A DNA stretch of 64,000 nt, taken from assembly GCA_020252645.1 (NCBI GenBank), contig JADCCN010000002.1, positions 744,001 through 808,000 on the forward strand, written 5' to 3'. The notes beneath the pieces were generated by a model. The model searched no databases. It saw nothing but the letters and a program-made list of their open reading frames with translations, and was not told the origin of the DNA. The stretch's first letter is position 1; every line of letters starts with the position of its first letter. Made by a program: the position numbers and the translations under genes. The DNA is from Methylobacterium sp. Its GTDB lineage: Bacteria; Pseudomonadota; Alphaproteobacteria; Rhizobiales; Beijerinckiaceae. This document shows, piece by piece, positions 15,034 through 27,425 of this stretch.

Positions 15034-15205
15034 CTAGAGCATGCTGTGAAAAAGTGGAATCCGGTTTTTCACAAAAAAGCATGCGATAATAATATGATAA
15101 GAGCATTCTCTCGCAAAAGTGGATGCCGGTTTTGTGTAACAAAATGCGACAAAACAATAAGATAGAGCTCGGTTTTGATTCCATCAAAACGAGACGTGCT
15201 CTAGA
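15034..15205. repeat. Composite palindromic repeat, about 170 bp, CTAGAGC...GCTCTAG ends
   Basis: Starts CTAGAGCATGCTGTG and ends GTGCTCTAGA. It contains the AAAAGTGGAATCCGGTTTTT core, GCATGCGATAATAATATG, then a second core (AAAAGTGGATGCCGGTTTTG) and a short hairpin GTTTTGATTCCATCAAAAC (15173-15191). It looks like two repeat modules fused. Its final CTA is the reverse complement of the TAG stop of the mutarotase gene. Bases 14928-15033 upstream carry no gene. Confidence 0.7.
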
Positions 15206-16094
15206 TCCAGTCGGCGCGCTCGACGCCAAAGCGGACCACGCAGCGATGCTCCCGGATCGCGCCAGGTGCGAGCCTTGTCATGGCCGGCAGATCAGCGACC
15301 TCTGCCGTCGAGCCCGCGGGAACCGGCAACCCTTGCCATGGCTCGATGCAGAAGAACGGCGCACCGGGCTTCGACCACAGGCCAAGCTGGGCAAACCCGC
15401 CGAGATCAACCCCGATTCCGGGCCGGTTCGCAGCGCCCAGCCACACGCGCTCGCTTCGAACAGCGCCGAGAACCATGGCGCCCTCGCTCAACCGGGCAGC
15501 CCCCAGCGGCAGATACCGCCCGGAGAGATCGACCGTGCCCTGCGCGGCGACGAGGCCCAGGGGCGTCACGCGATGGAGATGGGTCTCCTCATGCGTGAAG
15601 GCGATGCCGTATTCCGCCAACGGGGCGCCGCTCCCGCCCGGCATCGGCAAGGCAAATCCCGGATGGAACCCCAAGGCATAAGGCATGGACTGCGCGCCCG
15701 TGTTCTCCACGCGCGCGGCCATGGCGAGCATCCGCCCCTCCAGCGCATATTCGATGTCGAGCCGGAACGGGAACGGAAAATGCCGGAGCGTCCCTTCGCT
15801 CTGCGTCAGCCGCCACGTCCCCCGGGCCTGCTCCCGCGTGATCAGCGCAAATTCCGAGAGGGGCGCGAATCCATGGCTCGGCATCGGCCATTCCTGCTGG
15901 CCATAACGAACCAATCCTCCCGGCACAGCCCCGATGATCGGGAACAGCACGGGCGATTGCCGCGCCCAGATGGCAGGATCGCCCTGCCAGAGCCATTCGC
16001 CGCAGGAATCGCGGATGGAGGTCAGCTCTGCGCCGCGTCGTGCGACGGTGATGGAAAGATCGCTGCCCGAAAGGGAGGTCGAGGCGGACATCAT
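15201..16094 (-). CDS. Aldose 1-epimerase family protein (sugar mutarotase)
   Basis: A 297-residue protein of the galactose mutarotase-like superfamily. Supporting segments are VARRGAELTSI at the N-terminus, PVLFPIIGAV, MPSHGFAPLSEF, ALGFHPGFALP (the catalytic-region histidine) and FFCIEPWQG with the likely catalytic glutamate. It interconverts anomers of an aldose so that the dehydrogenase receives the right form. The start at 16094 gives an ATGA overlap with the aldolase; an apparent 241-codon upstream extension is only open frame across the neighbour. Its TAG stop is supplied by a dispersed repeat. It is the last gene of a three-gene minus-strand operon. Confidence 0.85.
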   Translation of the reverse strand: MMSASTSLSGSDLSITVARRGAELTSIRDSCGEWLWQGDPAIWARQSPVLFPIIGAVPGGLVRYGQQEWPMPSHGFAPLSEFALITREQARGTWRLTQSEGTLRHFPFPFRLDIEYALEGRMLAMAARVENTGAQSMPYALGFHPGFALPMPGGSGAPLAEYGIAFTHEETHLHRVTPLGLVAAQGTVDLSGRYLPLGAARLSEGAMVLGAVRSERVWLGAANRPGIGVDLGGFAQLGLWSKPGAPFFCIEPWQGLPVPAGSTAEVADLPAMTRLAPGAIREHRCVVRFGVERADWI

Positions 16095-16717
16095 GCGAGG
16101 GCTGCGATCAGGTGACGCCCACGGACGGCGACAGCCTCGGGCGTCATGCCCGGCTTGAAAAGCGAAGAGCCGAGGCCGAATCCCTGGCAGCCCGCGGCTT
16201 TCAGGCTGCGCATGTTGGTCACGTCGATGCCGCCCACGCCAAGCAGGCAGACATCCTTGGGAAGCACCGCCCGCAGGGCTCTCACGCCCTTCTCTCCAAT
16301 AATCTCCATGGGGAAGAGCTTCAGGGCCGAGGCCCCGGCCTGCAAGGCGCCGAAGGTTTCGGTGGGACTGAGCACGCCGGGCACGGATACGAGCCCCGCC
16401 CTGCGGCTCGCATGCACCACGGCCGGATCGAAATGCGGCGACAGCACAAGACCCGCACCGAGACGGGCGAGTTCCTCCACCTCCGCCGCGCTCATGACTG
16501 TGCCTGCGCCGATCATCGCCCGGCTTCCCAGGGCCTTCACGAGGCGTTTGATGCTCTCGAAGGGCGCGGGCGAGTTCAGCGGCACCTCGATGATGCGCAT
16601 CCCCTCGGCCAACAGCGCCTCGCCGATCGCCACGGCCTCGTCCGGCTTCACCCCCCGCAGGATGGCGATGAGCGGACAGGCCGCGACATGCCGCGCAAAT
16701 TCGTTCGCGGCATTCAT
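16091..16717 (-). CDS. dgoA: 2-dehydro-3-deoxy-6-phosphogalactonate aldolase
   Basis: A 208-residue class I aldolase of the KDPG/KDPGal family. The Schiff-base lysine is Lys133 (ALKLFPMEII) and the general-acid/base glutamate is Glu44 (IIEVPLNSP). It cleaves 2-keto-3-deoxy-6-phosphogalactonate to pyruvate and glyceraldehyde 3-phosphate, the last step of the De Ley-Doudoroff galactose route. The choice of KDPGal over KDPG rests on the IIEVPLNSP sequence and on the overlap (TCAT, i.e. ATGA) with a DgoK-type kinase. Cytoplasmic. Confidence 0.9.
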   Translation of the reverse strand: MNAANEFARHVAACPLIAILRGVKPDEAVAIGEALLAEGMRIIEVPLNSPAPFESIKRLVKALGSRAMIGAGTVMSAAEVEELARLGAGLVLSPHFDPAVVHASRRAGLVSVPGVLSPTETFGALQAGASALKLFPMEIIGEKGVRALRAVLPKDVCLLGVGGIDVTNMRSLKAAGCQGFGLGSSLFKPGMTPEAVAVRGRHLIAALA

Positions 16718-17619
16718 GCCAGCGCTCCGGTGGAAGCCAGCTTGCGAAAGCCTTCCACGGCGGCCTCTGCTGGCCCGATCTCGGCGGCCCGCCCGCGATG
16801 GGCGAGCGCCAGTGCATAGCGCTGGACGAGCACGGGCTCGCCGATCAGAACGAGGCGCGCGGCAGTGCCCGTCTCAAGCGCCAGGCCTGCCGCCAGCTCA
16901 TGCCCGATGAGCATGCCGGAGAGGCGGGACGCGATGGACTCAACCGGAAATGCGCCGAGCAAAGCGCCGCTGCGGGCCGTGAAAATGTCATTCAGCAGGC
17001 TGATCGAAGCCGGGCTGAAGGCGAGATCGACGCCCGCCAGAAAGGCGCCCTCGTCGAAGGGTGCCGGATCCTTCGGCATCAGCCGGCCCACGATGGAATG
17101 CTGGCTCAGCAGGGCGAAGACCTCGCCGGTGAGGAACGTGCGCAATCCGTTGATCGCCCCGCCGGCAACACGCACCCATTTGCTGTGGGTGCCGGGCAGC
17201 ACGATGGTCGCATCATCCGCGGCTCCCACGGTTCCGAAGACCTGCATTTCCTCCCCGCGCATCACATCGGGCGAAGGCGCAAGCGCCGAGACACCGGGCA
17301 TGAAATGCAACCTTGTGCCATCTGCGAGCTCCCGCACCAGCGCATGCTGCGCAATGCCGGCGACCGTCGCGGGGCAGGCAAGATAGGGTGTCTCCACCCA
17401 CCCGTTGCGGCTGGTGATCATGCCCGAGAGACAGATGTCCCGGCCCTCCTTCGCCATCCAGGGCCCGATCTCGCGGCGCAGGGTATCCTCGAAGCGGCCA
17501 TCGATGACCGACAGGATACCCGCCGCCGCCTGATGCCGGTCGATGACCGTGCCATCCGGCCCGAACCGGTAAGCGCGAAAATTGCTCGACCCCCAGTCGA
17601 CGACGATTCTGTCCTGCAT
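16714..17619 (-). CDS. dgoK: 2-dehydro-3-deoxygalactonokinase
   Basis: A 301-residue kinase of the DgoK family. Diagnostic segments are IVVDWGSSNFRAYRF at the N-terminus, CLSGMITSRNGWVETPYL, MRGEEMQVFG and LPGTHSKWV. It phosphorylates 2-keto-3-deoxygalactonate to the substrate of the adjacent aldolase. The ATG at 17619 was preferred to one 28 codons upstream because a GGATGGGA ribosome site lies just before it and because the family begins at this point. It is divergent from the DapA-like gene, with a strong palindrome in the shared promoter region. Confidence 0.92.
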   Translation of the reverse strand: MQDRIVVDWGSSNFRAYRFGPDGTVIDRHQAAAGILSVIDGRFEDTLRREIGPWMAKEGRDICLSGMITSRNGWVETPYLACPATVAGIAQHALVRELADGTRLHFMPGVSALAPSPDVMRGEEMQVFGTVGAADDATIVLPGTHSKWVRVAGGAINGLRTFLTGEVFALLSQHSIVGRLMPKDPAPFDEGAFLAGVDLAFSPASISLLNDIFTARSGALLGAFPVESIASRLSGMLIGHELAAGLALETGTAARLVLIGEPVLVQRYALALAHRGRAAEIGPAEAAVEGFRKLASTGALA

Positions 17620-17702
17620 ATTCCCATCCTGCCCCGAAGACCCGACCCGCGAAACGCCTTGACCGTAACCGGCCGGTTGAGTAAAGTCCATATATAGGTT
17701 CA

Positions 17703-17738
17703 ATGGTCCATAATATGGATCATTCTCAGATGGATCAT
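17703..17738. promoter_or_regulatory. Palindromic operator in the divergent promoter of the galactose-type cluster
   Basis: A 21-base near-perfect palindrome, ATGGTCCATAATATGGATCAT, lies at 17703-17723; its inner 13 bases TCCATAATATGGA are perfect. The right half ATGGATCAT is repeated at 17730-17738, sixteen bases (about 1.5 helical turns) further on. The site is between dgoK and the DapA-like gene, 13 bases before the latter's start. It is the natural target for the IclR-type regulator encoded at 24954, though this is inference. Confidence 0.6.
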
Positions 17739-17750
17739 AAAGGGGGGCTG

Positions 17751-18665
17751 ATGATCAAGGGCGTCTGGCCTGTCCTGTGCACCCCCTTTCTCGCGGATGG
17801 CGCGATCGATGTCCCGGCCATGCGCCGCGTCGCCCGCTTCGCGATCGATTCCGGCGCGGCGGGTGTGGTCTTTCCCGGCTTCGCGAGTGAGGTGGACGAG
17901 CTTCAGCCCCTGGAACGGCGCATGCTGCTCGAGGCGGTCATCGCGGAAACAGGCGGCCAGGTGCCGATCATGGCCGGGGCCAGCGCCAGCAGCCTCGCCG
18001 ACGTCATCGACCGCGTGCGCGAAGTGCTCGCCCTCGGCATCGTGCCGGTGATGATCCAGGCTCCGAAGGCCATCGGGGCGGATGCGGCGGTAGTCTCGGC
18101 CTTCTACGGGGCGATTGCCGAGGCCTGCCCTGCGGCAGAGATCATCCTGCAGAATGCGCCGGCCCCGCGCGGATCGGATCTTTCTCCCGCCGCCGTGCTG
18201 CGGGTGGCGCAAGAGAACCCCGCAATCCGCTATGTGAAGGAGGAGACCATTCCCTCCGGCGGGCCCATCAGCACGCTCCTTGCCGGCAAGCCGGCCAGCA
18301 TCGCCGGCGTGCTCGGCGGCGGGGGCGCGCGCTTCCTCATCGATGAATTCCTGCGCGGGGCCTGCGGCGCGATGCCCGCAGTCGAGATCACCGACATCCA
18401 TGTCGCGATGTGGGCCGCGCTTGAAGCGGGCCGCGAGACGGAGGCGCGCGCCCTCTATGAGCGCACATTGCCGCTGCTGATGATCCAGAGCCATGCACGC
18501 ATGCGCTTCACGAAACGCGTGCTGATGCGTCGCGGCGTGCTGGCGAATGATGTCGTCCGCGCGAAGATTCCCGCCTTTGATCCTCGCGACCTCGCGGAGA
18601 TCGACGCGCTTCTGGCGCGCATTCCCGATCTGCTGACAGCCGCCCCGGTGAGGAAAGCCGCGTGA
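17751..18665 (+). CDS. DapA-family lyase/dehydratase, probably acting on a 2-keto-3-deoxy sugar acid
   Basis: A 304-residue TIM-barrel protein of the dihydrodipicolinate synthase/N-acetylneuraminate lyase superfamily. The Schiff-base lysine is Lys163 in IRYVKEET. The GTTGE-like loop reads GFASEVDEL, and the catalytic tyrosine of DapA (YNVP motif) is replaced by glutamine (Gln134 in LQNAPAPRG), so it is not a dihydrodipicolinate synthase. The ATG at 17751 was chosen for its AAGGGGGG ribosome site; an ATG at 17703 lies inside the operator palindrome. The context argues for a keto-deoxy sugar-acid aldolase or dehydratase. It overlaps the next gene by GTGA. Confidence 0.82.
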   Translation: MIKGVWPVLCTPFLADGAIDVPAMRRVARFAIDSGAAGVVFPGFASEVDELQPLERRMLLEAVIAETGGQVPIMAGASASSLADVIDRVREVLALGIVPVMIQAPKAIGADAAVVSAFYGAIAEACPAAEIILQNAPAPRGSDLSPAAVLRVAQENPAIRYVKEETIPSGGPISTLLAGKPASIAGVLGGGGARFLIDEFLRGACGAMPAVEITDIHVAMWAALEAGRETEARALYERTLPLLMIQSHARMRFTKRVLMRRGVLANDVVRAKIPAFDPRDLAEIDALLARIPDLLTAAPVRKAA

Positions 18666-19828
18666 GGGACACGATCGCCACCGTCGAGAGCTTCGTCATC
18701 ACGATCCCGCGTGACACGCCCTATCTCGGCGCATTGCGGCCGGGCGAGGAGGCCAATGCGCGAGGCTATTTCGTGCGCAAGGGCAACCGTACGGTCTATC
18801 CGGCCTTCGATCGCAACGTGCTGGTGCGCCTGCGCACGCGCCATGGCGTCATCGGCTGGGGCGAAACCTATGGCATCGTCGCGCCTCGCGCGACCATGGC
18901 CATCATCGACGACCTGCTCGCGGATTTCGTGATCGGCACGGACCCCTTCGACGCCACCGCGACGCATGACCGCCTTTACGACCTGATGCGAGTGCGCGGC
19001 TATACGGGCGGTTACTACCTCGATGCGCTCGCGGCGATCGACATTGCGCTCTGGGATATTGCGGCGCAGATCGCCGGCCGGCCGCTCTGCAAGCTGCTCG
19101 GCGGGCAGAGGCGCGAGACGATCCCGGCCTATCTCTCCGGCCTCCCGAAGCCTTCGCGCCCGGCCCGCGCCATGATGGCCGCCGAGTGGCAGGCGAAAGG
19201 CTTCAACGCCTTCAAATTCGCCGCCCCCGTGGCGGATGACGGTGTGGAGCGCGAGATCGAAACCTTGCGAGAGACTCTCGGGCCCAAGGCGCGCATCGCC
19301 TGCGACATGCATTGGGCCCAGAGCGCGGCCGGTGCGCGGATGCTCATCCAGCAGATGGAACCGCATGGCCTCTGGTTTGCCGAAGCGCCGGTGAATCCGG
19401 AAGATCTCGACGGCCTCGCGGAAGTCGCCGCCTCCGTCTCGACGCCCATCGCGGCGGGCGAGGAATGGCGCACGGCCTTCGATGCCCAGGCGCGGCTCGC
19501 GCGGCGGGCCTGCGCGATCCTTCAGCCGGAAATGGGCCACAAGGGCGTCACCGAGTTCATGCGGATCGCCGGCCTCGCGCAGGTGCATCATTGCGAGATG
19601 ATCCCGCATGCGACCATCGGCATCGGGATTTTCCTGGCTGCGAGCCTGCATGCGAGCGCTGCGGCAGCAGCCGTCACGGCGCATGAATTCCAGCATTCCA
19701 TCGTGGTGCCGAACGCGAGATATCTCGACGGTGCCATCGCTTGCGAGGGGGGCGAATACAGCTTGCCGCCCGGTGCGGGCCTCGGCGTGCGCCCCTCTGC
19801 GGCGGCGCTCGCCATTCTCGAACAATAA
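18662..19828 (+). CDS. Enolase-superfamily sugar-acid dehydratase (mandelate racemase/MLE family)
   Basis: A 388-residue enolase-superfamily protein. The magnesium ligands are Asp215 (ACDMHW), Glu241 (FAEAPV) and Glu267 (AAGEEW). A candidate base Lys185 (AFKFAAP) and a histidine at 316 (MIPHATIG) complete the active site. It likely dehydrates an aldonate such as galactonate or arabonate to the 2-keto-3-deoxy acid used by DgoK. It starts with GTG in a GTGA overlap with the DapA-like gene and is followed 26 bases later by the sugar-binding protein. The precise aldonate cannot be read from sequence. Confidence 0.85.
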   Translation: MRDTIATVESFVITIPRDTPYLGALRPGEEANARGYFVRKGNRTVYPAFDRNVLVRLRTRHGVIGWGETYGIVAPRATMAIIDDLLADFVIGTDPFDATATHDRLYDLMRVRGYTGGYYLDALAAIDIALWDIAAQIAGRPLCKLLGGQRRETIPAYLSGLPKPSRPARAMMAAEWQAKGFNAFKFAAPVADDGVEREIETLRETLGPKARIACDMHWAQSAAGARMLIQQMEPHGLWFAEAPVNPEDLDGLAEVAASVSTPIAAGEEWRTAFDAQARLARRACAILQPEMGHKGVTEFMRIAGLAQVHHCEMIPHATIGIGIFLAASLHASAAAAAVTAHEFQHSIVVPNARYLDGAIACEGGEYSLPPGAGLGVRPSAAALAILEQ

Positions 19829-19854
19829 CCAAGAACGACCCAAGGGAGGATGAC

Positions 19855-21126
19855 GTGACACAGACATTCAGGCGGTTGATTCTCGGCAGCGCCGCCGCCA
19901 TTGCACTGGCTGTCGCCGGCCCGGCCATGGCACAGACCAAGACCTTGAAATTTGTCTCCTGGCAGAAGGACGAGCGCGGCGTTGGTGATTGGTGGGCCAA
20001 TGTCATCAAGGCCTTCGAGGCCAAGCACCCCAATGTGAAGATCGAATGGACCAAGGTGGAGCGTGGCGCCTATGCCGACACCATGACCACGCTCTTCGCC
20101 GGCGGCAAGCCGCCGGAAATCGTGCATCTCGCCTCGTTCGAGTTCCAGAAATTCGCCGATCAGGGCTGGCTCGAGGATCTTGGCCCCTATGTGAAGAAGG
20201 CCAATCTCGACCTCAGGGGCTGGGCCGGGCAGAGCGCCTGCGAGTGGAAGGGCAAGACCGCTTGCCTGATGATGCTCTATTTCGGCAATATCTTCGCCTA
20301 TAATGAGGAAATGCTGGCGAAGGAGGGCCTGAAGCCCCCCACCAACTGGGCGGAATATCTCGCGGCGCTCAAGGTTCTGACCAAGGATACCAATGGTGAC
20401 CGCATTCCCGACCAGTTCGGCACCGGCCACGAAACCAAGGGCGGCGGCGGGCAATATCTCAGCGAATTGATGAACTACACGCTCGATGCCGGCGGCCGCT
20501 GGACCGACGACAAGGGCAAGGTGACCATCAACACCCCGCAGATGATCGAGGGGCTGGCCCGCTGGAAGGAAATCGTCCGCAACAGCTATACCCCGCGTGA
20601 TCTCTCCGCCGGCGAAACGCGCCAGATGTTCGCCGATGGCCGCATTGCGATGAAGTTCGACGGCCCGTGGCTCTACCCCATCATCCAGAAGGGCAAGGCC
20701 AGGGACCAGATCAAGATCGCTCCCGTGCCGTTCAACCCGCCGCTCGGCGGCTCCTCGAACATCCTCGGGATGGCCTCGGAAATCCCGGCCGATGCGAAGG
20801 CGCTGGTGTGGGATTTCATCGCCATCGCGAGCTCCGACAAGTTCCAGTCGGATTATGCGACGCTCGCGGCCTCCACCCCGCCCAGCCCGCGCGCCGACAC
20901 CTCGGCCGCCAAGAAGGACACGCCGCATTTCGACATCCTCGTCGACATGGCGAAGAAGGCCTCGGCAGCGGGTGTGGATCGCATCCCCAGGGGGCTGGAA
21001 ATCCAGTACAACGAGTTCGCCAAGATGATCATGGAAGAAGCCCAGCGCATGATCATCAACGATCTCGACCCGAAGGCCGTCGCTGCCACGATGCAGCAGA
21101 AGGCCGAAGCCATCCAGAAGCAGTAA
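19855..21126 (+). CDS. Sugar ABC transporter substrate-binding protein
   Basis: A 423-residue group 1 extracellular solute-binding protein (MalE/UgpB type). A signal peptide covers residues 1-24 (LILGSAAAIALAVAGPAMAQ). The mature part begins KTLKFVSWQKDERG and contains the family segments FAGGKPPEIVHL and GRIAMKFDGPW. The GTG at 19855 was chosen because GGGAGG lies seven bases upstream and the signal peptide starts there. It delivers sugar to the two permeases that follow seven bases downstream. Confidence 0.9.
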   Translation: MTQTFRRLILGSAAAIALAVAGPAMAQTKTLKFVSWQKDERGVGDWWANVIKAFEAKHPNVKIEWTKVERGAYADTMTTLFAGGKPPEIVHLASFEFQKFADQGWLEDLGPYVKKANLDLRGWAGQSACEWKGKTACLMMLYFGNIFAYNEEMLAKEGLKPPTNWAEYLAALKVLTKDTNGDRIPDQFGTGHETKGGGGQYLSELMNYTLDAGGRWTDDKGKVTINTPQMIEGLARWKEIVRNSYTPRDLSAGETRQMFADGRIAMKFDGPWLYPIIQKGKARDQIKIAPVPFNPPLGGSSNILGMASEIPADAKALVWDFIAIASSDKFQSDYATLAASTPPSPRADTSAAKKDTPHFDILVDMAKKASAAGVDRIPRGLEIQYNEFAKMIMEEAQRMIINDLDPKAVAATMQQKAEAIQKQ

Positions 21127-21133
21127 GGCCGGG

Positions 21134-22042
21134 ATGATGGCGGAGAGGCGTTTCCTCGATCTCGCAAGGCCGAGCCGGCAGCACTGGCTCGGCTACCTGC
21201 TGCTGGCTCCGGCCGTGCTGCTGGTGGGCGCGATCATCGTCTATCCGCTCTTCGTTTCCATCGACATCTCGTTCCAGAATGTGGGGATCGCGCGGATCGA
21301 TCAGCCGCGCCGTCCCTTCACGACCGACAACTACACGCGTCTCTTCACCTCGCCGGATTTCTGGAATGCCTGCTGGGTGACGCTGAAGCTCGTGGTGATC
21401 GTCACCGCCTGCTGCTTCCTGCTTGGGCTTTGCACGGCCTTGCTGGTCAATAACCGCTTCAAGGGCCGCGCGGTGGCGCGCCTCCTCGTGGCGATGCCCT
21501 GGGCGGTTCCCGAGGTGATCGCCGTGGTGATCTTCGCCTGGCTGTTCGATTCCTCCTTCGGACTGATGAACTGGCTGCTGATCCAGATCGGCGCCATCGA
21601 CCGGACGATCAACTGGTTCTCCGAGCCCGGGCCGGCTTTCGCGGCCGTCGCCACGACCATGATCTGGAAGGGCTATCCTTTCGTCTCGATCATGGTTCTG
21701 GCCGGGCTGCAATCCATCCCCGAGGATTACCATGCCGCGGCGCGCGTCGATGGCGCGAATGCCTGGCAAAGGCTCGTTCACATCACCCTGCCTTCGCTGA
21801 TGCCGGTGATCGGCGTGACGATCGTGCTGGTGATGCTGTGGATCTTCCGGGATTTCTCGATCATCTACGTGCTGACCGGCGGCGGACCGCTGAAGGCCAC
21901 GCAGACGCTCTCCATCATGACCTATGAGCAGGCCTTCAGCTTCTTCCGCATGGGCTACGCCTCGGCCATCGGCATCGTCACACTGGTCATCTGCGTCATC
22001 GCGGCGAAGCTGATGATGCATCGCGCCCCCGAAAGCCTGTGA
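21134..22042 (+). CDS. Sugar ABC transporter permease (MalF/UgpA type)
   Basis: A 302-residue inner-membrane permease with about six transmembrane helices (first helix YLLLAPAVLLVGAIIVYPLF). The EAA loop is present as DYHAAARVDGANAWQRLVHI near residue 203, which docks the ATPase. It lies seven bases after the binding-protein gene and seven bases before the second permease, with ATG at 21134 or 21137. It forms a heterodimeric channel with the next gene product. Confidence 0.92.
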   Translation: MMAERRFLDLARPSRQHWLGYLLLAPAVLLVGAIIVYPLFVSIDISFQNVGIARIDQPRRPFTTDNYTRLFTSPDFWNACWVTLKLVVIVTACCFLLGLCTALLVNNRFKGRAVARLLVAMPWAVPEVIAVVIFAWLFDSSFGLMNWLLIQIGAIDRTINWFSEPGPAFAAVATTMIWKGYPFVSIMVLAGLQSIPEDYHAAARVDGANAWQRLVHITLPSLMPVIGVTIVLVMLWIFRDFSIIYVLTGGGPLKATQTLSIMTYEQAFSFFRMGYASAIGIVTLVICVIAAKLMMHRAPESL

Positions 22043-22049
22043 GGGCACC

Positions 22050-22880
22050 ATGCGTGCTTCAGCCCTGCAGCAAGCCTTCCTCTATGCCGGCGTGATCCTC
22101 ACCTGCGCGATCCTGATCTTCCCGATCTACTGGCTGGTGGTGACGGCGCTTTCGCAGCCGGATCAACTGCGCCAGCTGCCGCCGAATTTCTGGCCGGCCG
22201 AACCTCGCTGGGGCGTCTTCGCCAAGATCTTCGAGGAGCGGCCGATCCTCCTCTGGCTGGGCAATTCGGCACTCGCGGCCATCGGCGCGGTCTCGATCTC
22301 GATGGTCGTTTCCGTGCTGGCCGGCTACTCCCTCTCGCGATTCCGCGTGCGCGGCGGCGAAAGCCTCGGTCTTTTCATCCTCACCGCGAAGATGCTGCCG
22401 GCGACCTTGCTGGTGATTCCGCTTTTCGGCATCTTCCGCACCTTCGGGCTCATCGGCTCGATGTGGTCGGTCATCTTCGCCCACGCCACGCTCATCATCC
22501 CCTTCACCACCTGGATGCTGAAGGGCTATTTCGACACCATCCCGCGCGAACTCGAACAGGCAGCGATGGTGGATGGCTGCTCGCCGCTCGGCGCGCTGTT
22601 CCGGGTTATCCTGCCGGTCTCGGCGCCGGGGCTCGCGGCAACCGCGCTCTACGGTTTCGTGCTCTCATGGTCGGATTATGCCTATGCGCGCACCTTCCTC
22701 ACCAGCGCGCAGGGCAACTGGACTGCCAATCTCGGCATCACGACGATGAAGGGCGAGTATATCTCGAACTGGGCGGATATCTCGGCGGCGTCCATTCTCG
22801 TCGCGCTGCCGATCCTGCTCATCTACCTGTTTTTCGAGCGTTATCTTGTCGGCGGCCTGACCGCCGGATCGGACAAGTGA
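22050..22880 (+). CDS. Sugar ABC transporter permease (MalG/UgpE type)
   Basis: A 276-residue permease with six predicted helices. The N-terminal helix is LYAGVILTCAILIFPIYWLVV and the EAA motif is ELEQAAMVDGCSPLGALFRV near residue 170. The C-terminus FFERYLVGGLTAGSDK is the typical carbohydrate-permease ending (RYLVGGLTAGAVK consensus). It pairs with the preceding permease and is followed six bases later by the ATPase. Confidence 0.92.
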   Translation: MRASALQQAFLYAGVILTCAILIFPIYWLVVTALSQPDQLRQLPPNFWPAEPRWGVFAKIFEERPILLWLGNSALAAIGAVSISMVVSVLAGYSLSRFRVRGGESLGLFILTAKMLPATLLVIPLFGIFRTFGLIGSMWSVIFAHATLIIPFTTWMLKGYFDTIPRELEQAAMVDGCSPLGALFRVILPVSAPGLAATALYGFVLSWSDYAYARTFLTSAQGNWTANLGITTMKGEYISNWADISAASILVALPILLIYLFFERYLVGGLTAGSDK

Positions 22881-22886
22881 CAGGCC

Positions 22887-23984
<1,098 letters not shown>

Positions 23985-23997
23985 AGGAAGCCTCTCG

Positions 23998-24978
23998 ATG
24001 ATCCTCGTCACCGGCAGTTCCGGACGCATCGGGCGGCACCTCGTCGAGGCCCTGCTGGCGCGGGGCGAAACCGTGCGCGGCTTCGATGCCCGGCCCTCCG
24101 GCCGCAGCACCGAGGGCTATTCGGAAGTGACCGGCGCCTTCAGTGACGCTGACGCCGCAGCGCGTGCGATGGAGGGCGTGCGCATCATATTCCATCTCGG
24201 AGCCTTCATGTCGTGGCTCCTGGCCGATCAGCCCAGGCTCTTCGAGGCGAATGTCGAGGGCACGCGCGTGCTGCTCGCCGCCGCGGCGGCGCAGAAGGCG
24301 CGCCGGTTTCTTTTCGCCTCGTCCGGCGAGGTCTATCCCGAGAATATGCCGCAATATCTGCCGGTAGATGAGGCGCATCCGCTCGCGCCCGCCTCGGCCT
24401 ATGGCCTGACGAAGCTCCTGGGCGAGGAGATGGTGCGCTGGGCCGGGCGCAGTGCGGGCCTCGCCTTCACCATCCTGCGGTTCTCGCACACGCAGGATGC
24501 AACCGAGCTGCTGGATCCCGACAGCTTCTTCTCCGGTCCGCGCTTCTTCCTGCAATCGCGCATCCGCCAGCAGGAAGCCTTCGGCAACCAAGCGGTGGCG
24601 GATCTGCTTCGCCGGCATGATCCCGGGCGACCCGCCATGGTTCTGGCCCGGAATGAAGCGGGGCGCCCTTTCCGCATGCACATCACCGATGCGCGGGACA
24701 TGGTGGCCGGCCTGCTTCTGGCGCTGGACCACGAGGTGACGATTGGCGGCACCTATAATCTCGGTGCAACCGATCCGGTGGATTTCGCCGAAGCCCTGCC
24801 GATGCTGGCCGAGGTCACGGGCTATCCCATCTGCATGGTGGACTTGCCCGGCGCGGGCGTGTTCTACGAAACCAGCAATGCGCGGTTCCGGGCCGAGACG
24901 GGCTTTGCCCCGGCCTGGCCCTTCGCGCGCATGGTCGAGGAGGCTGCCGTCGCATGGCGGGCGAAGCACAGGTCCTGA
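23998..24978 (+). CDS. NAD-dependent epimerase/dehydratase-family sugar dehydrogenase
   Basis: A 326-residue extended SDR protein. The nucleotide-binding motif is GSSGRIG (residues 7-13) and the catalytic pair is in AYGLTKLLGEEM (Tyr-x3-Lys). Family members include UDP-sugar epimerases, uronate dehydrogenases and sugar dehydrogenases; the context of lactonase and aldonate dehydratase favours oxidation of an aldose or uronate to a lactone. The ATG at 23998 was chosen for its GGAAG ribosome site; the frame begins 17 codons earlier within the ATPase gene end. It overlaps the next gene by 25 bases. Confidence 0.82.
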   Translation: MILVTGSSGRIGRHLVEALLARGETVRGFDARPSGRSTEGYSEVTGAFSDADAAARAMEGVRIIFHLGAFMSWLLADQPRLFEANVEGTRVLLAAAAAQKARRFLFASSGEVYPENMPQYLPVDEAHPLAPASAYGLTKLLGEEMVRWAGRSAGLAFTILRFSHTQDATELLDPDSFFSGPRFFLQSRIRQQEAFGNQAVADLLRRHDPGRPAMVLARNEAGRPFRMHITDARDMVAGLLLALDHEVTIGGTYNLGATDPVDFAEALPMLAEVTGYPICMVDLPGAGVFYETSNARFRAETGFAPAWPFARMVEEAAVAWRAKHRS

Positions 24979-26666
24979 AACCCGACGAACGGGATGTGCC
25001 CGGCGGCGCGGCGGCCCTTGCGAAGGGGCTCTATCTGCTCGACCTGATCGGCGAGCGCGACCAGCCCGCGCGCTTCAAGGATCTGCAGATCGCCTCCGGC
25101 CTGCCGAAGGGCACGCTCGCCCGCATGCTGAACACGCTCGTGACCTTCCGGCTGGTGCGCCATGAGCCGAGCGACAACACCTATCGCCTTGGCAACCGGC
25201 TGTTCGAACTGGCGCATCGCGTCTGGGAGACCTTCGACCTGCGCGGGGCCGCTGCCCCGCAGCTCGAACGCCTCGCGACCGAAACCCACGAGACCGTCGC
25301 GCTGACCGCGATGGACAATGACCAGGTGATCTATATCGACCAGCGCAGCGGCGGCGGTCCTTTCGGCTTCCGGATCGAGGTGGGCCGGCGCGCGCCGCTG
25401 CATTGCACCGCCCCAGGCAAGGCGCTTCTCGCCTTCTCGCCACCGCATGACCAGCGGATGATCCTCGCCCGCATCCCGCTCGAACAGCACACGACAACAA
25501 CCATCACGGATGCCGAGCAGCTCGTGGCCGATCTCGCGATCACAAGGGCGCGCGGCTATTCGATCTCGCTCGGCGAGCATCTCGATGGCGTCGTCTCCGC
25601 CGCGGCACCGGTCTTCGACCACACCGGCAAGGCCATCGCGGCCATCGGCGTCTTTGGCCCATCGGCGCGGATCGGGCTCGACCGGCTGCACATCATCGGC
25701 CGCGATCTCATGGAGGCGGCCCGCATGATTTCAGGAAATGTCGGGGCGAGCCTGGTGTCGATCCAGTCGAAATCCGCGCCGCCGCGCGCCGTCTCGCCCA
25801 ATGTGGAATGCGTGCTGCCCTGGGGGGCCAATCTTGCCGAGGGGCCGGTCTGGTCCGCGCGCGAGAACCGCCTCTACTGGATCGATATCCTGGCGCCGGC
25901 GGTCTATCGCTTCGATCCCGCGACCGGCACGAACGATACCTGCCCGCTGCCGCGCCTTGTCGGCGCCATCGTCGAGCGGAAGACGGGCGGTCTCGCTGCC
26001 CTGACCATGGAAGGCCTGGAGGCGCTCGATTTCGACAGGCGCGCGCTCGCAGCCATGGTCGACCCCGAAGCCGACAAGCCGGAAAACCGCTTCAATGACG
26101 GCAAATGCGATGCGCAGGGTCGGCTCTGGGCCGGCACGATGAGCCTCGATGCCATGCGCAAGACCGGCTCGATCTATCGGATCGACCCCGATCTGCGCTG
26201 GCAGCGGATGGATGGCCCCTTCACGGTCGCCAACGGGCTCGACTGGAGCCCCGATGGTCGCACCTTCTACTTCGCCGATTCTGCGGCCGGTGCCATCTAT
26301 GCCTATGATTTCGACCCCGCACGGGGAACGCTCGCCCATCGTCGCGTCTTCGCGATGGTCGATCCCGCCGACGGGCGGCCGGATGGCCTCACGGTGGATG
26401 CCGAGGGCTGTGTCTGGTCCGCTCTCTGGGATGGCTGGGCGGTGCGGCGCTTCGATCCCTCGGGCCGGATGATGAGCGATCTGCGCCTGCCGGTGCCGCG
26501 CCCCACCAGCGTGGCCTTTGGCGGGGCGGATTACCGCACGCTCTACATTACCTCGGCGCGCATCCGCCTGCCCGCGCGCATCCTCGCGGATGCCCCGTTC
26601 TCGGGCGGCATTTTCGCGGCTGATGCGGGCGTGGCCGGCTGGCCCGCCGGGCAATTCGCCGGGTGA
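24954..26666 (+). CDS. IclR-family regulator fused to an SMP-30/gluconolactonase domain
   Basis: A single uninterrupted 570-residue frame. Residues about 18-80 form the IclR winged helix (ALAKGLYLLDLIGE, GLPKGTLARMLNTL), and 95-265 the IclR effector domain (HCTAPGKALLAF, ARGYSISLGEHLDGV). After a short linker (about 268-285), residues 286-565 form a six-bladed SMP-30 lactonase with the metal ligands Glu297 (AEGPVW), Asn427 (VANGLDW) and Asp477 (GRPDGLTVD), and the substrate residues in NRFNDGKCD (379-387). The protein should both regulate the cluster and hydrolyse the sugar lactone. The start at 24954 has GAGGAGG ten bases upstream. A frameshift artefact is unlikely, since one frame covers both domains. 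Confidence 0.9.
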   Translation: MAGEAQVLKPDERDVPGGAAALAKGLYLLDLIGERDQPARFKDLQIASGLPKGTLARMLNTLVTFRLVRHEPSDNTYRLGNRLFELAHRVWETFDLRGAAAPQLERLATETHETVALTAMDNDQVIYIDQRSGGGPFGFRIEVGRRAPLHCTAPGKALLAFSPPHDQRMILARIPLEQHTTTTITDAEQLVADLAITRARGYSISLGEHLDGVVSAAAPVFDHTGKAIAAIGVFGPSARIGLDRLHIIGRDLMEAARMISGNVGASLVSIQSKSAPPRAVSPNVECVLPWGANLAEGPVWSARENRLYWIDILAPAVYRFDPATGTNDTCPLPRLVGAIVERKTGGLAALTMEGLEALDFDRRALAAMVDPEADKPENRFNDGKCDAQGRLWAGTMSLDAMRKTGSIYRIDPDLRWQRMDGPFTVANGLDWSPDGRTFYFADSAAGAIYAYDFDPARGTLAHRRVFAMVDPADGRPDGLTVDAEGCVWSALWDGWAVRRFDPSGRMMSDLRLPVPRPTSVAFGGADYRTLYITSARIRLPARILADAPFSGGIFAADAGVAGWPAGQFAG

Positions 26667-26672
26667 TCCAGC

Positions 26673-27425
26673 GTGCAACCTGCCTACCCTGATCTGGCCG
26701 GGAAGGCCGTGCTCGTCACAGGCGGTGCGGGCGGCATCGGACGCGCCATTGCGGAAGCCTTTCTCGCGCAAGGCGCCCGCGTGGCGATCCTTGATCGCGA
26801 AGCCGGGATGGTCGCGGCATTCCGCGCGCAGAAGCCCGAATTGCTGGCCGAGACGGCCGATCTCGCGGATATTCCGGCGACCCGGGCCGCCATCGCGGCG
26901 CTCGAGGCGCAGACGGGCGGGTTCGATGTGCTTGTCAATAATGCCGGCCAGGATGCGCGCCACCCCTTCATGACGCTGACGCCGGAGCAATGGGACGACC
27001 GGATGGCGGTGAACCTGCGTCATGTGATGTTCGTGACGCAGGCCGTGGCGCCCGGCATGGCCGCGCGCGGAGGTGGCGCCATCATCAATCTCGGCTCCAC
27101 CTCCTGGATGAAGAACACGCCCGGCATGGTGGCCTACACAACCGCAAAGGCGGCGATCCTCGGCTTCACCAAGACCGTCGCGCGGGAATTCGGGGCGGAG
27201 AAGATCCGCGTCAACGCCATCGTGCCGGGCTGGGTGATGACCGAGCGCCAGTTGGCCGAGCGTGCAACCCCGGAAAATCTGGCCAGGGCGCTGGAGCAGC
27301 AGGCCCTGAAAATCCGCATCGAACCGGCGGATATCGCGGCTCTCGCCCTGTTCCTCGCCTCCGAAGCCGCCCGCGCCATCACCGGACAGAGTGTTGTGGT
27401 GGATGCCGGCGGGCCGGGCACCTGA
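26673..27425 (+). CDS. Short-chain dehydrogenase/reductase, probable sugar dehydrogenase
   Basis: A 250-residue classical SDR. The cofactor motif is TGGAGGIG (residues 16-23), NNAG is at 89-92, and the catalytic residues are a serine at 142 or 144, Tyr155 and Lys159 (AYTTAKAAILG). The aspartate at 41 after the second strand (AILDRE) suggests NAD rather than NADP. It starts with GTG six bases after the fusion gene and ends the plus-strand sugar operon. It may be the galactose or arabinose dehydrogenase of the pathway, with the epimerase-family gene at 23998 as an alternative or partner enzyme. Confidence 0.85.
   Translation: MQPAYPDLAGKAVLVTGGAGGIGRAIAEAFLAQGARVAILDREAGMVAAFRAQKPELLAETADLADIPATRAAIAALEAQTGGFDVLVNNAGQDARHPFMTLTPEQWDDRMAVNLRHVMFVTQAVAPGMAARGGGAIINLGSTSWMKNTPGMVAYTTAKAAILGFTKTVAREFGAEKIRVNAIVPGWVMTERQLAERATPENLARALEQQALKIRIEPADIAALALFLASEAARAITGQSVVVDAGGPGT

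Follow-up and report, generated by a model that had tools for sequence, protein, structure and literature searches.

A stretch of 64,000 nucleotides from Methylobacterium sp. (assembly GCA_020252645.1, contig JADCCN010000002.1, positions 744,001 to 808,000; hereafter the window, whose coordinates are used unless another contig or locus is named) contains, on the plus strand at 24954–26666, a single gene that joins an IclR transcription factor to an SMP-30 sugar lactonase in one chain of 570 residues. This IclR–SMP-30 fusion is a genuine two-domain protein. With a probability of about 0.6, we read it as a bifunctional enzyme-regulator, which would serve as the repressor of its operon and as its lactonase, with the lactonase propeller also contributing to regulation. 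Some relatives retain the propeller after losing its catalytic site, which hints at a possible part for it in operating the gene switch.

The fusion protein and its distribution

The first-pass annotation of this DNA had described one 570-codon frame with complete IclR and lactonase halves, a description that holds in every part. The frame is single, open and uninterrupted from an ATG start that overlaps the 3′ end of the preceding gene and is preceded, ten bases 5′, by AGGAGG at 24938–24943. The HTH_IclR winged helix (residues 21–72, 25014–25169; Pfam 40.8 bits, cut-off 22), whose recognition-helix region reads LPKGTLARMLNTL, is followed by the IclR_C effector/oligomerisation domain (residues 91–260, 25224–25733; 149.7 bits, cut-off 24), a linker (25734–25832) and an SMP-30/SGL propeller (residues 294–536, 25833–26561) covering positions 1–246 of the 246 in the SGL profile (298.9 bits, cut-off 26.3). 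The protein scores below the cut-off of all eight NCBIfam IclR models that it matched. An AlphaFold2 model with a mean predicted local distance difference test score (pLDDT) of 87.9 and a predicted template modelling score of 0.79 is confident over both domains, pLDDT falling below 50 at residues 1–17 and, in the linker, at 264–269. Among the PDB matches listed (43 distinct sequences in one search, 25 in another), no chain has its best stretch over both halves.

A search for the same two-domain order returned full-length fused homologues at 67–76% identity in other genomes, which excludes chance, a local frame error and an assembly artefact. The tallies of the group searches, made with the fusion or a neighbour as query, are lower bounds, at most three to seven candidates being scored per genome. 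In the sample of the window's family, at least 39 places in 27 of 199 genomes span both domains (at most six candidates scored per genome, and the contig fragments G002:C30/C188 and G059:C38 dropped), and the fusion is present in at least two of the ten genomes listed for the window's genus. Matches over both domains were found in at least five of the 385 genomes of the class sample, the window's included (at most three scored), and in the window's genome alone among the 299 of the phylum sample (at most four scored). From a scan of named genomes 80 loci were retained, and 54 of these have the fusion. Carriers include Bosea, Microvirga, Chelatococcus, Methylobacterium, Devosia, Agrobacterium, Rhizobium, Ensifer and Rhodobacteraceae, among others, as well as Tahibacter soli and Paraburkholderia sp. 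C35, which we take to lie outside the Alphaproteobacteria; in the latter (L171), two fusions adjoin in opposite directions, both with intact sites. Among plasmids, 144 records have a place that covers at least 80% of the fusion protein. On pSymA of Sinorhizobium meliloti 1021 the homologue has an unbroken frame and an intact metal site, and on pAt of A. fabrum C58 the genes stand in the same order, the 1683-bp gene there bearing a lactonase name.

The alternative raised in the first-pass annotation, that homologues would prove to be separate genes, finds no example here: the loci examined yielded fused homologues and not one split pair. An IclR gene (more than 40 bits with a custom profile) is absent from the flanks, which vary in length, of all 26 unfused SMP-30 loci in the named-genome scan. 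With the neighbouring oxidoreductase as query, at least six of 297 genomes of the order were matched, the window's included, and all five of the others have an adjoining fusion. These two results rule out a chance joining of neighbours. For comparison of the proteins, an alignment of 82 non-redundant fused homologues was used, 18 of 100 rows having been dropped as near-identical. The linker (alignment columns 262 to 291) is 28 or 29 residues long in 65 of the 82, with a range of 19–31. The tree of each domain requires the label “fused” to change twice, and a single origin of the fusion is possible.

Propellers with and without a metal site

Of the metal ligands named in the first-pass annotation, Asn427 (codon 26232–26234) and Asp477 (26382–26384) are right by alignment to regucalcin, and the third, given as Glu297, is off by one: it is Glu296 (25839–25841), which corresponds to the Glu in the GESP of regucalcin. 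The profile alignment also pairs Arg379 and, from the NRFND motif, Asn381-Asp382 with regucalcin residues; in regucalcin the aligned positions are its ligand and substrate residues. All six pocket residues (E296, R379, N381, D382, N427 and D477) are intact in the window's fusion.

The same six residues are all kept in 62 of the 82 fusions, and the remaining 20, all outside the window, have at least one metal ligand changed, a division that cannot be read as a frequency because the named-genome scan sought intact-site peptides. The 62 include L173, from a metagenome-assembled genome, retained as an open reading frame (ORF) of 533 residues, though the gene is broken further on; at L173:4120-5774 three stop codons lie in one frame, so that the gene is either broken or wrongly assembled. 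Asp477 alone is changed in L075, L028, L159 and L167, and its loss is combined with a change of Glu296 to Asp in L077, L078 and L177. Asp382, Asn427 and Asp477 are changed in L079–L081, and Glu296, Asp382 and Asn427 in L082. In the nine rows L083–L091, none of the three metal ligands is left unchanged. Seven further fusions, from plasmids (L229–L235), also lack all three. Across the tree, at least six changes in metal-ligand state are needed. By comparison, 65 of 67 unfused SMP-30s have the whole triad, one having a gap at the Glu column and the last, mis-extracted, proving intact. The site-less propeller is still recognised by the SGL profile, with 78.6 and 89.3 bits against the cut-off of 26.3.

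The ratio of nonsynonymous to synonymous substitution rates (dN/dS) points to purifying selection on both halves of the intact fusions. Between the window and L130 it is 0.21 for the IclR half and 0.24 for the SGL half; nine of the other ten intact-site pairs have values of 0.00–0.16 for both halves, and the tenth has 0.13 and 0.22. By the same measure, site-altered propellers are mostly under purifying selection, dN/dS of the SGL half being 0.04–0.29 in seven of eight pairs: 0.19–0.20 in three pairs among L089, L090 and L229, 0.04–0.09 in two among L079–L081 and 0.22–0.29 in two among L077, L078 and L177. In addition, six residues, L313, P315, P515, R536, A547 and S550, are found in 94–99% of fusions versus 20–38% of unfused SMP-30s, and each is retained in nine or ten of the ten rows L082–L091. 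A further position, Arg538 (codon 26565–26567), occurs in 98% of intact fusions versus 3% of unfused SMP-30s, and nine of the ten rows L082–L091 have Gly there, which makes it a candidate substrate-specificity residue.

Since the site-less propellers are kept, mostly under purifying selection and with their fusion-typical residues, the fused propeller probably has a metal-independent job. The first-pass annotation had proposed that the aldonate might be channelled to the effector pocket, or that the enzyme might be held at the operator. The loss of the metal site from a propeller that is kept implies that catalysis or channelling would not be the sole reason for the fusion, and that a sensing or structural role would be needed too. 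The best reading of these sequences is that in some relatives the propeller is kept without catalysis, for sensing or structure.

A separate SMP-30 gene lies nearby in six of 19 site-altered rows (L079–L081, L087, L089 and L159, the ligand triad of the separate copies being intact) versus none of 60 intact rows (Fisher p = 0.0001, on rows that are related; L028, L171a and L171b were left out). Shared descent weakens this association: a test on independent pairs had one or two informative pairs and was not significant, and the seven site-less plasmid loci have no other SMP-30. That a separate lactonase replaces the fused one wherever the site is lost is thus a weak proposition. Some 6 kb from L234, in another operon, is a gene annotated “beta-propeller fold lactonase family protein”. 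L230–L235, on plasmids of Bosea, Agrobacterium, Microvirga, Phyllobacterium, Bradyrhizobium and Sinorhizobium, have genes of RraA type or for aldehyde dehydrogenase next to them, and no lactone chemistry is evident within the gene run. Their surroundings share RraA-type (annotated as a methyltransferase in L235), NTF2-like and enolase-superfamily genes, together with an aldehyde dehydrogenase in four of the six, and this recurring set may represent an undescribed sugar-acid pathway.

The operon and its candidate operator

The fusion gene is the last but one of a run of genes on the plus strand that begins with a member of the dihydrodipicolinate synthase (DHDPS) family. Upstream of this first gene lies a 17-bp palindrome, GGTCCA-N5-TGGATC, at 17705–17721 (GGTCCATAATATGGATC), within the stretch 17703–17738 that the first-pass annotation had put forward as the target of the protein. 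A weaker second site with four mismatches (17685–17701) is found 20 bp upstream, centre to centre, and it overlaps a sigma-70-like promoter, TTGACC-17-TAAAGT (17659–17687, plus strand; one found, 0.1 expected). The pattern GGTCCA-N5-TGGAYC has three matches in the window's genome, of which only 17705–17721 has an all-A/T centre. One occurrence of GGTCCA-N5-TGGACC, at G000:C23:11760-11776, is a possible second target.

In DHDPS-led operons that reach the fusion, the 205 bp up to the DHDPS start were searched for a 6-N5-6 palindrome with CA and TG inside and no more than one mismatch among the four outer pairs, a criterion set after inspection, and 24 of 33 operons have such a candidate operator versus 1.1 expected after shuffling; three of 82 stretches inside the coding region contain one. 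The arms covary as compensating pairs (GATCCA/TGGATC, GTATCA/TGATAC, GGTTCA/TGAACC and GTTCCA/TGGAAC). Across 32 loci, chosen by site and hence no blind test, the type of arm tracks the recognition helix of the fusion: TLAR goes with GRTCCA, TFAR mostly with GTRTCA, and YR/HR types often with TCTCA.

In the paper of Suvorova and Gelfand (2021; PMC8222616), the main motif of the IclR family (group 1) is given as GKTYCRYW3-4RYGRAMC, with tandem sites 18–22 bp apart, and ordinary IclR proteins have about 250 residues. The palindrome at 17705–17721 deviates from the W3 form of this consensus, GKTYCRYW3RYGRAMC, at one position, and the 20-bp tandem spacing fits. The IclR half thus probably reads the palindrome before its own operon.

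The DHDPS-family aldolase/dehydratase (17751–18665, its start inferred from homologues) is followed by a mandelate racemase/enolase-superfamily protein, a candidate sugar-acid dehydratase (18662–19828), and by four genes of an ABC transporter: the solute-binding protein (19741–21126, start uncertain), two permeases (21134–22042 and 22050–22880) and the ATPase (22887–23984). An NAD-dependent epimerase/dehydratase-family oxidoreductase (23947–24978) precedes the fusion, and a short-chain dehydrogenase/reductase (SDR; 26673–27425), a candidate sugar 1-dehydrogenase and the predicted maker of the lactone, follows it. Divergent from the run, on the minus strand, are genes for 2-keto-3-deoxy-galactonokinase (DgoK; 16714–17619), 2-dehydro-3-deoxy-6-phosphogalactonate aldolase (16091–16717; 258 bits, cut-off 207) and aldose 1-epimerase (15201–16091). 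In keeping with the first-pass annotation, which had found neither a separate lactonase nor a separate regulator in the operon, a Pfam scan of 24 window ORFs around it revealed no further lactonase family and no further DNA-binding regulator, nor is there a second SMP-30 gene in the operon. The SGL search of the window's genome gave one other protein, on another contig, a 537-residue fusion with SGL followed by an isochorismatase domain (G000 contig C8:41501-42262; L096:1414-3024); it is likewise an SGL fusion, with no DNA-binding domain among its Pfam matches.

The presence of DgoK and of the phosphogalactonate aldolase points to D-galactose as a possible sugar of the operon. A De Ley–Doudoroff D-galactose operon would place DgoK and this aldolase beside a dehydratase, a lactonase and a sugar dehydrogenase; the two enzymes and a mutarotase are present here, but a DgoK-like stretch occurs in the DNA of only 30 of the 82 fusion loci. 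The DHDPS-family enzyme has no evident part in such an operon, and the dehydratase scores 168 with the galactonate dehydratase model (cut-off 311); for none of the 12 NCBIfam models that it matched does it reach the cut-off. The SDR is closest in the PDB to sulfoquinovose 1-dehydrogenase (E 1.1e-73); its nearest NCBIfam model is D-xylose 1-dehydrogenase, with 284 bits, under the cut-off of 400. Given the sulfoquinovose 1-dehydrogenase match, the sugar may be an unusual one.

How the two halves may work together

In the mechanism that we favour, the IclR half would bind 17705–17721, together with the weaker 17685–17701, over the promoter of the first gene and repress the operon, and its effector domain would respond to a pathway intermediate, which may be the lactone, the aldonate or the 2-keto-3-deoxy acid. 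The propeller would be the operon's lactonase, opening the lactone made by the adjoining SDR, and would add to regulation, serving either as another ligand-binding module or within the oligomer, a contribution that would explain its retention after loss of the metal site in some relatives. Binding to the palindrome, repression, the effector, catalysis and their coupling are all points that we infer from the sequences: the fusion is taken as the repressor because of the operator evidence, repression rather than activation being the natural expectation, and the lactonase is taken as active because of its residue pattern and because the operon has no other. A bolder and more tentative version, which we consider possible but would not bet on, is that an enzyme captured by a transcription factor has turned several times from catalyst to pure sensor, so that the window's propeller would both open and report the lactone, and that of site-less relatives would continue to bind a ligand and to gate the IclR half.

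The most serious competitor to the enzyme-regulator reading, though an unlikely one, is a plain co-expression fusion, in which two independent machines are merely held at fixed stoichiometry and the lactonase has no part in regulation. The intact pocket in the window, the typical character of each domain for its family and the short linker stretch of low model confidence (264–269) would all suit it. It is at odds with the linker length, 28 or 29 residues in 65 of the 82 fusions, with the retention of site-less propellers, mostly under purifying selection, and with the fusion-typical residues that outlive the active site. The converse proposal, that the propeller is everywhere a pure sensor or oligomerisation domain and that the window's intact site is no longer catalytically relevant, would be in line with the repeated loss of the site in relatives, and we regard it as improbable: most of the fusions examined keep the six pocket residues, the window's operon has no other SMP-30 gene, and separate SMP-30s stand near site-altered loci and not near intact ones, in rows that are not independent.

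Two further explanations are very improbable. An internal start at Met258, where the ATG is preceded by a Shine–Dalgarno-like stretch, would also yield free lactonase and partly undo the fusion in the cell, but Met is found at this position in one of 82 fusions, that of the window, and an in-frame ATG with such a stretch occurs anywhere in 250–296 in only 15 of the 82. Equally, another regulator, of which the two further IclR-like matches in the window's genome could be examples, might own the palindrome and leave the fused IclR half idle, but across operons the arms covary with the fusion's recognition helix, and dN/dS is lower for the IclR half than for the SGL half in 16 of 18 pairs.

Several observations weigh against the enzyme-regulator reading itself. 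In those 16 of the 18 pairs with both values, the SGL half is the faster-evolving of the two, and constraint is weaker between L084 and L086 (dN/dS 0.46 for IclR and 0.41 for SGL). No palindrome was found in nine of the 33 DHDPS-led operons, and of 49 other loci only 12 have one ahead of the fusion gene, against 2.4 expected, with at least two of the 12 GC-rich and chance-like. The operator criterion was fixed on the very loci to which it was applied, after a first consensus had been dropped that missed the window's own type, and it is by covariation and family likeness that the palindrome is assigned to the fusion. Finally, a regulatory role for the window's intact-site propeller would be an extrapolation from its site-less relatives.

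With other IclR-family transcription factors (KdgR, PcaR/PobR, BhcR), the fusion shares HTH_IclR and IclR_C domains above cut-off and a candidate operator near the group 1 consensus with a second site 20 bp off. It differs in its 570 residues and its C-terminal SGL enzyme domain, and departs from the two-domain build of about 250 residues. We regard it as an IclR protein of unusual architecture that should work like an ordinary one. With the SMP-30/regucalcin lactonases (regucalcin, 3G4E, and the SMP-30/Cgr1 family protein 7PLB, which we take to be the Caulobacter xylonolactonase), it has the full SGL profile, the metal triad and the NRFND motif in common; unlike theirs, its propeller sits on a transcription factor, and some fused relatives lack the metal site. 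Fusions of transcription factors with enzymes and trigger enzymes, such as BirA, PutA, NadR and MocR-type proteins, likewise combine a regulator with a metabolic enzyme or enzyme fold in one chain, with different folds; in the IclR–SMP-30 proteins, the enzyme half is intact or site-less according to lineage. Enzyme–transcription factor fusions are already known as a kind; a literature search, with subscription journals mostly outside its reach, returned nothing on the IclR–SMP-30 architecture.

The fusions appear in databases as “SMP-30/gluconolactonase/LRE family protein” or as “IclR family transcriptional regulator C-terminal domain-containing protein”. Because some carry an enzyme-style annotation, the name can conceal a regulator of a sugar-acid operon. 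The change from enzyme to receptor is usually argued from single cases, whereas the IclR–SMP-30 architecture has both intact and site-less forms, which occur in operons with recognisable candidate operators, and an intact member is present on pSymA of a laboratory strain, S. meliloti 1021. If the catalyst-to-sensor reading is true, the family would form a natural series that leads from enzyme to receptor inside a single type of transcription factor.

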